Below the pieces are notes generated by a model, which was given only the letters and a program-made list of their open reading frames with translations, was not told the origin of the DNA and made no database searches. Below are positions 20,256 through 60,909 of a DNA stretch of 64,000 nucleotides, in pieces. A program made the position numbers and the translations under genes. The first letter of the stretch is position 1, and each line of letters opens with the position of its first letter. The DNA comes from Dissulfurispira thermophila (GTDB taxonomy: Bacteria > Nitrospirota > Thermodesulfovibrionia > Thermodesulfovibrionales > Dissulfurispiraceae): contig NZ_AP022873.1 of the NCBI RefSeq assembly GCF_014701235.1, positions 1 through 64,000 on the forward strand, in the 5' to 3' direction.

Positions 20256-20699
20256 ATGACAGGCACAGATTATGTAAAAAGATTAGAGAATGTTATAAAG
20301 CAAATGCTTACGCCTCTCAACGATATTCCCTTCAATCTTGTTATAGAAGCTATGACAGGGGAAAAAGTCCTTTTTTTTGATTCTCAAAATTCTGAACACA
20401 ATGAAGTATTAAAATTTCTGCAAAAAGCCGCAATAACGGCTGCAAAAGAGATAAATAAAATAGGGATTTTGAGACCTCGTCCTAATTATGATGCCAGTCA
20501 CTTTTTATTGCCATTTGAAATTTATGTTGATAGCGAACAAGGTAGAAACCATAGCTACAAATGTAGGCACTACAAGATATTGTCTTCAGAGTCCCTATCC
20601 CTTGGTGTAAAATTTGAATTCAATTCTGATAATCAGAGGATGTATTCGGGCGATTGCGGGACAAGGCTTTTAGCTGAAGGAGAGATTAAAAATGAATAA
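20256..20699 (+). pseudogene. Type II restriction endonuclease remnant (MjaII-like) with internal deletion
   Basis: The 147-aa product starts like MjaII-type type II endonucleases, with ITAAKEINKIGILRPRPN (to about residue 73). Intact homologues, as I recall them, continue NEVGNDIEPFV and then the catalytic PD-(D/E)xK region. Here the sequence jumps directly to YDASHFLLPFEI and the C-terminal LGVKFEFNSDNQRMY segment. The catalytic core is missing, but the frame stays open. Its 3' end overlaps the selA start by 8 bp, so translation here may feed selA. Confidence 0.65.
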
Positions 20700-22086
20700 A
20701 CAAAAGCTCTTGTCATTATTACCGTCTGTAGATGAAATCCTTAAATCTAAAAAAGGATCGCAATGGCAAGAAATATATCCCCGGCGGTATGTACTTAAAG
20801 CAATTCGTGAGATTATCGAAGAAAAAAGACAGGCAATTCTCAGAGATGAATTGAAAGAGATTTCTATTGAAGCCATGCTCCCTGATATTGAGCACAGGGT
20901 TGAGAGGCTTTCTTCATTCAGCCTTAAGCCTGTGATTAATGCAACAGGTGTTGTGGTTCATACTAATTTAGGCAGGTCAGTGCTTTCTGAAGAGATACTG
21001 GAGAATGTTAAAAGGGTTGCTTGTGGATACTCAAATCTTGAGTATGACCTTGAAAAAGGTGAGAGGGGCAAGAGGTATTGGCATGTACAAATGCTGCTAA
21101 ATGAGATTACAGGTGCTGAGAGTAGTTTAATAGTCAATAATAATGCTGCTGCAGTATTTGTGTGCCTGAGCGCCCTTGCAAAAGGCAAGGAGGTAATTGT
21201 ATCAAGGGGAGAGCTTGTTGAAATAGGGGGATCTTTTAGGGTGCCAGATGTGATGGCAAGTAGCGGAGCGATTTTACGAGAGGTGGGAACAACTAATAAG
21301 ACACATTTATATGATTATGAAAATGCAATAAATGAAGATACAGGCTTGTTGTTGAAGGTCCATCAATCAAATTTCAGGACAATAGGCTTTACAAAACTTG
21401 TAGGGATTGAAGAACTTGTAAATCTCGGCAGGACATATAATATCCCTGTGATGTTTGATTTAGGGAGCGGCTGTCTTATGGATTTAAGGCCTTATGGTAT
21501 TTATGTGGAACCAACTGTCCATGAGATTATAAAATCAGGTTGCGATATTGTTACATTTAGTGGAGATAAACTATTAGGTGGACCACAGGGAGGGATTATT
21601 GTAGGAAGGTCAGAACTCATTGAAAAGATTGCAAAAAATCCACTTATGAGGGCTGTGCGCATAGACAAACTCACCCTTTCAGCATTTGAGGCAGTGCTTA
21701 TGCATTATTTAGATGAAGAAAAGGCAAAGAAAGAGATCCCCACATTAAGGATGTTATTGCAGGATATAAATGAAATAAGGGCAAGGGCAAAGAAGATAGC
21801 CACAAGGCTGCACAGGGAGATAAAAGATGATGTTGCAAAAATTGAGATAGTAGAAGACTCTTCCCAATCAGGCGGGGGTGCATTGCCTGAGGTAGAATTT
21901 AAGACCTTTGTTATAACAATTAAACCTGAGAACTTGTCTGTTAACCATCTCCAAGAGCGTCTGCGTCATGGCAATCCACCTGTAATTGTAAGGATAAAAG
22001 AGGATAACATTATTCTTGATGTCAGGACAGTGAGGGATATTGAAATAAAGCCTCTGGTTAAAGTAGTTTCAGAGGCATTATTATAA
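20692..22086 (+). CDS. selA: L-seryl-tRNA(Sec) selenium transferase (selenocysteine synthase)
   Basis: SelA is a PLP enzyme that converts Ser-tRNA(Sec) to Sec-tRNA(Sec) using selenophosphate. It has 464 aa, a normal length. The N-terminal domain begins [31 protein letters not shown] is near residue 83; the PLP lysine lies in [13 protein letters not shown] near 290. The start overlaps the relic endonuclease gene. selB, selD and tRNA(Sec) are not in this window. Its presence supports reading the in-frame TGA at 45006 as selenocysteine. Confidence 0.95.
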
Positions 22087-44429: not shown

Positions 44430-45779
44430 ATGGGAAGGAAGTCATTATTAACTATTCTTGCTGTCTTTGCTGCTGCAACCATGGTTATAGCGGTATCCAG
44501 TGGTGTTGCAGAGCAAAAGCCAACAGTGGCAAAGTCATGTTCTCTGCCCGGATGCCACACTCCACAGGATAAGGTATTGAGGGGTAATGCTGGAGGAGTT
44601 TCTGCTAAAGCAGAGACAATCCAGATAAACACAGGGGTTGTATGGACAGTAAAATTCAGCGATGCCACGAAGATAGCAAACTGGGACAAACCTATAAATA
44701 AAATACCGCGCAACAAAGAAATTGCTATTACCTATACAGAAAAAGATGGACAACTTTATGCAATTGCAATAGCCGTAAAACCACCTGTTAAAGTGCCTCC
44801 TGAAAAGCTGCTGAATGTCGAAGATATGAAGAGATTCCTTGCAGAAGGTAAGGCTCTGATAATAGACGCAAGACCAGCACCGAGATACCATGAAGGGCAT
44901 ATCCCGGGGGCGATAAACATCTGGGATGCTGAATTTGATAAAAATATTAACAAACTCCCAAAGGAAAAAGATGCTCTTATTGTTTACTACTGCGCTGGTC
45001 CTACTTGAGCACTTTCACCATCATCTGCCAGGAAGGCAGAAAAAATAGGTTACACAAATGTAAAGATGTTTGTTGGAGGTATGCCTGAATGGAAAAAACA
45101 GGGTAATTTAGTAGTATCTACTAAGACAAATCTCAAAGAGCTAATGGACAAAGATATTCCACATGTGCTTATTGATGTTAGACCACCCGATGTAGCATCA
45201 AAGGAGCACATAAAGGGAGCAGTTAATATTTCACTTAATGAACTCGAAAATGCAAGGGATAGATTTCCTATCCAAAAAAATGCACCTATAATTATTTACT
45301 GCAATACGGAAAAGCTCTCTCAGGATGCATTTAAGGTAGTCAGAAAATGGGGGTATGTGAATGCAAGTTATCTCGAAGGCGGAATAGAAGGCTGGAAAAA
45401 GGCTGGCAATCCTGTATTAAGCGGACAGTTGAAAACTAATATTGTTTATGTGCCAAGACCGCGTCCCGGTGAGATAGCAATCACAGAGTTCAAAAAGATT
45501 GCTGATGCAATACCTGCTGATAAGTTTATTCTGGATGTAAGGGATGAAGACGAAGCAGCAAATGGTATGATTAAAGGGGCTGTAAATATTCCTACACAGG
45601 ATATTCAAAAAAGGCTTTCTGAAATCCCCAGAGATAAAGAGATTATAACTCATTGTTCAACTGGTGTGAGGGCTGAGATTGCCTACAATGTGTTAAAAGA
45701 AGCAGGATATAAGGTTCGATTTCTTAATGCAAATGTAAAGATAGATAAAAGTGGAAAATACGAAATAAGCAAAGACTAA
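44430..45779 (+). CDS. Periplasmic triple-rhodanese selenoprotein (TGA at 45006-45008 read as Sec)
   Basis: Reading through one in-frame TGA gives a 449-aa protein. Residues 1-27 form a signal peptide. C37-x4-C42-H43 follows, possibly a haem or metal site. Residues about 50-125 form a domain I do not recognise. Three rhodanese domains follow. The first (about 130-228) has D and R in IIDARPAPRYHEGH, C188 in YYCAGPT and the recoded residue at 193, then ALSPSSARKAEKIGY. In related proteins, as I recall, the second position is Cys (C-x-GPTC). The second domain has C291; the third has the canonical loop CSTGVRA (C409). The two halves are exactly in frame (57 nt apart), and the downstream half lacks its own ribosome binding site. 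Confidence 0.85.
45006..45045 (+). promoter_or_regulatory. Candidate bacterial SECIS element
   Basis: Downstream of TGA (45006-45008) a hairpin TCTGCC (45024-45029), loop AGGAA, GGCAGA (45035-45040) begins 16 nt after the codon. Its small G-containing loop and spacing match the general form of bacterial SECIS elements. SelB recognition is not proven. Confidence 0.6.
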
Positions 45780-59397: not shown

Positions 59398-60909
59398 ATG
59401 AAGAAGTTTTTGGTAGTTCTCCTTTCGCTCTCTCTTATGCTTCCTCTTCCTGTATTCGCTGCTGATCAGGCAGACCTCCTTCAGAAAATCGAGGCACTGT
59501 CTAAAGAACTCGACCGTCTGAAGCAGCAGATGCAGGAGATGCAGCAAAAAGAGGCAGCAAAGGAGGAAAGAATCACGGTAGTTGAGAAAAAGGCTGAAGA
59601 AGCCGCAGGGCCAAGCTGGCTGGAGATTGGTGGAGACTTCAGGGCAAGGATTGACAGCCTAAGTGGTAAAACGCATGATGCACGTCTTTTGGGTGGTACT
59701 CCATTTGGTTCAACAATTACGGGAGTTGATGGGAAGGATGTAAAAAACGATTCTTTGTTTACCAATCGCCTCGGACTTAATCTCAGGGCAAAGGCAACAG
59801 AAGACATTACAGTTAAAGCAAGACTCCTGATGTATAAGGTCTGGGGAATGGGTAATACCAATCCTGTAACAACCAATGCATTCTTTGCTGACAGGACAGT
59901 ATTTGATGGGACTACAGGCCACATACCGCAGGATAATACCCTCAGGGTTGATCAGGCATATGCAACATGGAGCAATATCGGCGGCGCACCAGTATGGTTT
60001 TCTATTGGAAGAAGGCCTTCAACAGGCGGTATCCCACAAAATCTGAGAACGAACACAGAAAAGACAGGCACAGCAGGTGTTCCTTCGCTGCTCGTTGATT
60101 ATGCATTTGATGGTCTGACAATAGGTTATGCCCCTGACATAGAAGCTCTTCCGGGTGCATATGCAAAGTTCTGCTATGGAAAAGGTCTTGACAGCGGATT
60201 CAGGCCGAAGAATAATAACCTTAAAGACACTTCTATGTTCGGCATAGATGTGGTTCCTTATGACACCGACAAATTTCATGTCGAGTTTAACTGGAATAGA
60301 GGTGCCAATATTTTCTTTAACCCAGACGCGATAGATAATAATACAAATCTTGGTGAAATAGATTGGTATGGGGCAACAGTCATGGGTAAGGTTGGAGACC
60401 TCAATCTGTTTGCATCAGGCGCTATTAGCAAAACACATCCTAATAATAATTCCATGGGACCATTTGCAGATGGTAATTCTTTCGGATTGATGTGGGACAC
60501 TGTTGAAGGTAAAAAATCACGCACAGGAAATGCTATCTATCTTGGTGGCAGATATGATATTACTTCCACTGGTACAAAGATTGGCTTGGAGTATAACCAT
60601 GGCTCTAAGAACTGGATAACATTTGTTCCCGCCAATGATGACATATGGACAGGAAAACTCGGAACAAGGGGCGATGTCTATGAGGTGTATCTTATTCAGG
60701 AACTCAATAAGAAGCCTATTGCTAAGAGAGGAAAGGCATTCTTCAGGCTTGGCTACCAATACTATGACTTCAAATATACTGGGAGCAACAACTGGGTTGG
60801 AGCACCACAAAAAATCTCAGATCTGAATAAAACAACGGGAGCGGGTGTATTCAAAGAAGTAATTGATAAGGCACACGACATCTACTTAACCTTTGATGTC
60901 TTATTCTAA
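59398..60909 (+). CDS. Outer-membrane porin-like protein (DUF3373-type)
   Basis: This 503-aa exported protein has a signal peptide (residues 1-21, ending VFA-A). A short coiled coil (about 24-72; LLQKIEALSKELDRLKQQMQ in the centre) follows, then a beta-rich domain to the C-terminus ending in Phe (TFDVLF), as for beta-barrel outer-membrane proteins. The barrel begins SWLEIGGDFRARIDS. Such porins with an N-terminal trimerising coil occur in Nitrospirota-like and delta-type bacteria. A terminator follows. Confidence 0.8.
   Translation: MKKFLVVLLSLSLMLPLPVFAADQADLLQKIEALSKELDRLKQQMQEMQQKEAAKEERITVVEKKAEEAAGPSWLEIGGDFRARIDSLSGKTHDARLLGGTPFGSTITGVDGKDVKNDSLFTNRLGLNLRAKATEDITVKARLLMYKVWGMGNTNPVTTNAFFADRTVFDGTTGHIPQDNTLRVDQAYATWSNIGGAPVWFSIGRRPSTGGIPQNLRTNTEKTGTAGVPSLLVDYAFDGLTIGYAPDIEALPGAYAKFCYGKGLDSGFRPKNNNLKDTSMFGIDVVPYDTDKFHVEFNWNRGANIFFNPDAIDNNTNLGEIDWYGATVMGKVGDLNLFASGAISKTHPNNNSMGPFADGNSFGLMWDTVEGKKSRTGNAIYLGGRYDITSTGTKIGLEYNHGSKNWITFVPANDDIWTGKLGTRGDVYEVYLIQELNKKPIAKRGKAFFRLGYQYYDFKYTGSNNWVGAPQKISDLNKTTGAGVFKEVIDKAHDIYLTFDVLF

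Follow-up and report, generated by a model that had tools for sequence, protein, structure and literature searches.

Does the TGA codon interrupting a rhodanese-like gene of Dissulfurispira thermophila end a protein or specify selenocysteine (Sec), and what kind of protein might result if the codon is read through? The question is posed by a 64,000-nucleotide stretch of the chromosome (contig NZ_AP022873.1, positions 1 to 64,000; hereafter the window), wherein open reading frame (ORF) calling under the standard code splits the gene 44430–45779 into a 192-aa ORF at 44430–45008, closing with TGA at 45006–45008, and a downstream ORF at 45066–45779. As a preliminary description of the locus had it, the two ORFs lie in the same frame, and reading through the TGA yields a product of 449 residues (...YYC(188)AGPT-U(193)-ALSPSSARKAEKIGY...).

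Domain architecture of the read-through product

The Pfam rhodanese model (PF00581) matches the 449-residue product at 193.8 bits, against a cut-off of 22.2, along three separate stretches. Thus, the earlier proposal that read-through restores a rhodanese domain was right about the domain but not about its number, for there are three such stretches rather than one (Table 1). The first of them carries both the residues of interest, with Sec193 at +5 relative to Cys188 (motif CxxxxU). Judging from their active-site motifs, rhodanese domain 1 (Cys188/Sec193) and domain 3 (Cys409) look active, whereas domain 2 does not: its Cys291 is not conserved, and it is probably inactive. A small beta-rich domain lies between the heme-c motif and rhodanese domain 1. 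The AlphaFold model of the product has a mean pLDDT of 91.5, and its best matches among solved structures are multi-domain sulfurtransferases; however, the whole-model TM-scores are low (about 0.2), and the arrangement of the domains relative to each other is therefore uncertain. A search of viral structures returned nothing useful.

Table 1. Features of the selenoprotein locus and of selA in the window
Feature	Coordinates	Strand	Remarks
Selenoprotein gene	44430..45779	+	Signal peptide, heme-c motif, beta domain and three rhodanese domains (predicted); 449 codons with TGA = Sec
Predicted signal peptide, residues about 1–28	44430..44519	+	Basic start and single hydrophobic helix 2–22 in the model; sequence poorly conserved
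Heme-c-type motif C37-SLPG-C42-H43 (CX4CH)	44538..44558	+	C37, C42 and H43 in 50/51 aligned homologues
Rhodanese domain 1, residues 130–223 matched, with Cys188 and Sec193	44817..45119	+	Pfam PF00581; Y187-C188-x-G190-x-T192-U193 near-invariant
Codon of catalytic-type Cys188	44991..44993	+	Cys in 51/51 aligned sequences
UGA codon, Sec193	45006..45008	+	TGA in 49/78 and Cys codon in 27/78 homologues
SECIS hairpin	45024..45040	+	6-bp stem 45024–45029/45035–45040; loop AGGAA 45030–45034
Rhodanese domain 2, residues 231–340	45120..45449	+	Column 291 variable: S, D, A, C, G or N
Rhodanese domain 3, residues 341–449	45450..45776	+	H408-C409-x-T-G active-site loop kept; C409 and G412 invariant
selA (selenocysteine synthase)	20692..22086	+	ORF translation, named by sequence recognition

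The heme motif takes the form CXXCH in most homologues and CX4CH in the window protein and in Thermodesulfovibrio. The latter spacing speaks against a typical c-type heme in the window protein; on the other side, cytochrome c assembly proteins are encoded in the genome. There is probably one c-type heme near the N-terminus, and the product is quite likely to be a periplasmic protein with such a heme, its motifs suggesting export.

Recoding of the TGA codon

Kinship with Thermodesulfovibrio sp. N1 places the source genome in the order Thermodesulfovibrionales. A survey of this order, covering 176 genomes, for full-length relatives revealed that most of them carry exactly one TGA, which falls on the same codon upon alignment, while nearly all those without a TGA have Cys at the aligned codon. 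Uninterrupted homologues, in which Cys replaces the TGA within a single ORF, are seen at six loci (L025, L033, L043, L050, L053 and L054). A scan of named genomes yielded a second set of 78 alignable homologues: here 76 have either Cys or Sec at this position (Table 1), one has Gly and one Arg, which bears out the earlier suggestion that the TGA sits at a conserved Cys column, with the qualification that the homologues are phylogenetically related, such that neither these counts nor those for the hairpin considered below represent independent events. On the tree of the homologues, Sec and Cys must have replaced one another at least 10 times. Neither Cys188 nor Cys/Sec193 varies in the aligned family, and the 19 residues from the TGA to the downstream ATG (194–212) are its best-conserved part, with a mean identity of 0.69 to 50 homologues as against 0.41–0.58 for the other mature parts of the protein. 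Possible loss of the site might be discerned in two relatives, at loci L060/L118 (Gly) and L091/L128 (Arg), where the residues flanking the Sec column are also altered.

A hairpin starts 15 nt 3' of the UGA. The bSECIS model of bacterial selenocysteine insertion elements specifies a loop of 3–9 nt, a stem of 4–16 bp, G in the first two loop positions, a spacing of 16–37 nt and an MFE <= -7.5 (PMC13188914); the hairpin in the window fits all these constraints, with a 5-nt loop whose second position is G, a 6-bp stem, a spacing of 21 nt and -9.4 kcal/mol. The fold of a 61-nt stretch is unremarkable (z -0.83), and it was a tighter 41-nt fold along with a comparative test that settled the hairpin. 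Among 66 distinct Sec homologues, 5.76 of the 6 stem pairs are kept, a value reached by none of 2000 synonymous-codon shuffles among the sequences; every one of the 66 has a standard third-position pair 18–30, and 64 have G at loop position 23. In contrast, the 28 Cys homologues keep 3.79 of the 6 pairs, which is the mean of the shuffle null, have the loop G23 in only 6 cases, and have for the most part let the hairpin decay. Since the Sec set exceeds the synonymous shuffles and the Cys set does not, selection acts on the hairpin over and above the encoded protein sequence, and does so only in genes with the TGA codon.

The machinery for Sec insertion is also at hand. The preliminary description had placed selA within the window, where it is indeed found (Table 1), and the three other components it named are present in the genome, a single contig of 2,370,875 bases: a tRNA-Sec with the UCA anticodon, selB (378 bits by model) and selD (327 bits by model). 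In 36 genomes of relatives (19 with the Sec form and 17 with the Cys form), selB is present in 19/19 of the former and 10/17 of the latter (Fisher p 0.002), with 7 of the Cys-form genomes being devoid of it.

Other genes of the same genome also contain in-frame TGA codons. The selD gene (L021, G000:C1:665512-666426) has one near its start (AAG*AAKMGP), in the usual place for SelD, and this selenophosphate synthetase is likely to be a selenoprotein itself; a molybdopterin oxidoreductase with a single in-frame TGA (L196, G000:C1:1180122-1182056) is perhaps a Sec formate dehydrogenase. Further, the chromosome codes for a divergent paralogue of the window protein (L002:1459-2826, minus strand; G000:C1 1931723-1933090), which is about 32% identical to it and has a single in-frame TGA at the corresponding codon (CRGGTU) as well as a CVSCH motif. 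Its neighbors, which by eye we take to be NosL-like and copper-chaperone-like genes and a sigma54-type two-component system, are not clearly informative.

The idea that the UGA is a true stop, be it in a pseudogene, through a sequencing error or between two proteins with re-initiation at the ATG at 45066, can appeal to the two ORFs of the standard calling and to the Gly and Arg loci, which show that the Sec site can decay, but it is left with a negligible probability by the same-codon TGA in dozens of species, the Cys in uninterrupted homologues, the conserved SECIS and the best-conserved stretch of the protein, which would go untranslated; conservation rules out all three versions of it. In particular, a sequencing error, named at the outset as something that would undo the proposal, can be dismissed in view of the paralogue on the same chromosome and of the dozens of independent homologues with the TGA; the two other conditions so named, a column without Cys or Sec and a genome without selB, selD and tRNA-Sec, do not apply either. 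On these comparative grounds, the TGA at 45006–45008 is almost certainly recoded as Sec, and the gene as a whole can be read as specifying one exported three-domain rhodanese selenoprotein with a predicted heme, an identity and architecture to which we would assign a probability of about 0.8.

Gene neighborhoods and a possible role in sulfur handling

Around the gene in the window there is no sulfur operon, its neighbors being what we take, by recognition, to be moaC-like and tolB-like genes. Farther along the window, a porin-like protein (59398–60909) resembles, by eye, the porin whose gene adjoins that of the Cys-type rhodanese in Geobacter (e.g., at locus L148). Among the loci of named relatives, 17 of 80 have a molybdopterin oxidoreductase nearby, which is closest to the thiosulfate reductase PhsA, yet falls below the cut-off for it (512 vs 694 bits). 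Accompanying genes include those for NrfD-type and FeS subunits in the Geobacter loci, cytochrome b in the Thermodesulfovibrio loci, multiheme cytochromes, and, in three relatives' loci, a YeeE/TsuA-like transporter. The source genome itself has no close copy of the relatives' molybdoenzyme, there being only distant relatives at 27–36% identity. Of the periplasmic sulfur or selenium transfer envisaged in the preliminary description, the context in relatives points to a form acting on periplasmic sulfane sulfur. A parallel might be drawn with Sud, a periplasmic sulfur carrier that works with polysulfide reductase; the proposed role and the Psr/Phs-type context of the relatives are similar, but Sud has one rhodanese domain only, of the Cys type, and lacks both heme and Sec, and the likeness is one of functional analogy only.

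A possible sequence of events can be sketched as follows. SelB and tRNA-Sec, guided by the SECIS hairpin, would place Sec at residue 193, and upon export of the product Cys188 would collect periplasmic sulfane sulfur as a persulfide. Sec193, at the far end of the same active-site loop, might then attack the persulfide, with sulfide being released or the sulfur handed on, and the ensuing Cys-S-Se-Sec bridge would be re-reduced, perhaps via the heme. It is the position of Sec193 that suggests it as the resolving residue, and we infer likewise the redox pair, the sulfur substrate and the partner, which in relatives would be the Phs/Psr-type molybdoenzyme. Such a persulfide mechanism, with a Cys/Sec redox pair serving the handling of periplasmic sulfane sulfur, is put forward tentatively, as a scheme that could well prove wrong. 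The more ambitious proposition of a new selenoenzyme class, in which heme-c rhodaneses would serve the sulfur metabolism of Nitrospirota and Desulfobacterota by reducing or transferring periplasmic persulfide or polysulfide, Sec acting as the resolving residue and electrons passing through the heme, is distinctly improbable at this stage.

The invariant pair of Cys188 and Cys/Sec193 is also what might be expected of a periplasmic thiol/disulfide or peroxide oxidoreductase, for which the rhodanese fold would merely provide a scaffold, and uncharacterized selenoproteins have been reviewed as being mostly probable redox enzymes (PMC9312934). However, the same protein retains a second intact and invariant rhodanese loop (C409xTG), and genes for sulfur enzymes occur near the copies in relatives; an oxidoreductase of this kind is unlikely, if still to be taken seriously.

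Relationship to known rhodanese selenoproteins

Five forms of rhodanese selenoproteins are listed in a 2026 review (PMC13188914), whose table gives the motifs UxxS, UxxG and UxxG for the rhodanese-like forms 1, 2 and 4. These three resemble the window protein in having a rhodanese domain with a single Sec. In form 3 (CxU; NF041203, rhodanese_LYCAU), the Cys is kept and a Sec added after it, as in the window protein, but the Sec is at +2 instead of +5 and the protein is a single domain of 126 positions; with 101 bits against a cut-off of 115, and with CxxxxU in place of CxU, the window protein falls outside that family. Form 5 (UxxxxU) is TsoB (NF045694), for which the source is reportedly Haft and Tolstoy (2025): it shares with the window protein the Sec at +5 of the rhodanese loop, but its catalytic position is also Sec, where the window protein has Cys, and it is fused to a DsbD-like part. 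Here too membership was rejected, the window protein scoring 78 bits, over the rhodanese region only, against a cut-off of 805. The earlier remark that a Sec five residues after the rhodanese Cys is unusual can therefore be retained in the sense of uncommon but not of unique, the UxxxxU of TsoB being a precedent (PMC13188914).

Variants of the loop are also seen. A family member at L068 (plus strand, gene from 2001; G035:C102) reads YUGGYHU, with TGA both at the catalytic Cys and at +5 (UxxxxU as in TsoB), and changes frame further downstream. Other genomes of the same order harbor small single-domain rhodaneses with a TGA near the rhodanese Cys (L074–L077, L079–L081, L084 and L092), mostly at +5 (CRGxGU-xLS), and with a hairpin in a slightly shifted register.

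It might be asked if the family is not already on record as "rhodanese-like form 1 (UxxS)" of Zhang and Gladyshev 2005 (WP_010941598.1). When compared by this short motif only, the U-A-L-S of the window protein fits UxxS, as does the CRGxGU-xLS of the single-domain rhodaneses, and some genomes from the order that includes Geobacter sp. OR-1 also harbor TGA-bearing members of the heme-c/triple-rhodanese family. Against this, the full-length members in the Geobacteraceae genomes searched are all uninterrupted and of the Cys type, and no NCBIfam model scores above its cut-off with the window protein, nor does NCBIfam have a model of its own for the CxxxxU heme-c/triple-rhodanese family. An identity with form 1 is less likely than not. 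A literature search of incomplete coverage brought up no description of a heme-c/triple-rhodanese selenoprotein. In sum, CxxxxU in a predicted periplasmic heme-c/triple-rhodanese protein matches none of the forms checked, though form 1 may overlap.

A selenoprotein that deals with selenium rather than sulfur, by way of selenite reduction or perselenide delivery, is improbable. A rhodanese able to carry perselenide is cited in a passage of PMC5877670, and in Geobacter the ext cluster, which serves selenite reduction (the selenite/tellurite operon), codes for the cytochrome selenoprotein ExtKL and for ExtH (NF040901), a rhodanese-like protein of about 49 kDa beside cytochrome genes. However, the ExtH model gives no match to the window protein at E 0.1 and just 17 bits with the paralogue, and the window protein is not assigned to that family; moreover, the neighbors in relatives are nearest to thiosulfate/polysulfide enzymes, and the Cys homologues persist in genomes that lack selB.

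Implications

Rhodanese selenoproteins were already known, as far as could be found only as bioinformatic entries, and the variant described here has a single rhodanese loop with Cys at one end and Sec at the other, a heme being predicted for the same protein. The family is common in sulfur- and metal-metabolizing bacteria, but standard annotation probably splits or truncates its members, and comparative work on sulfur disproportionation and reduction is therefore likely to overlook it. Closely related bacteria that have the one or the other version, Sec or Cys, offer a natural comparison for what selenium contributes to the chemistry of sulfur transfer.
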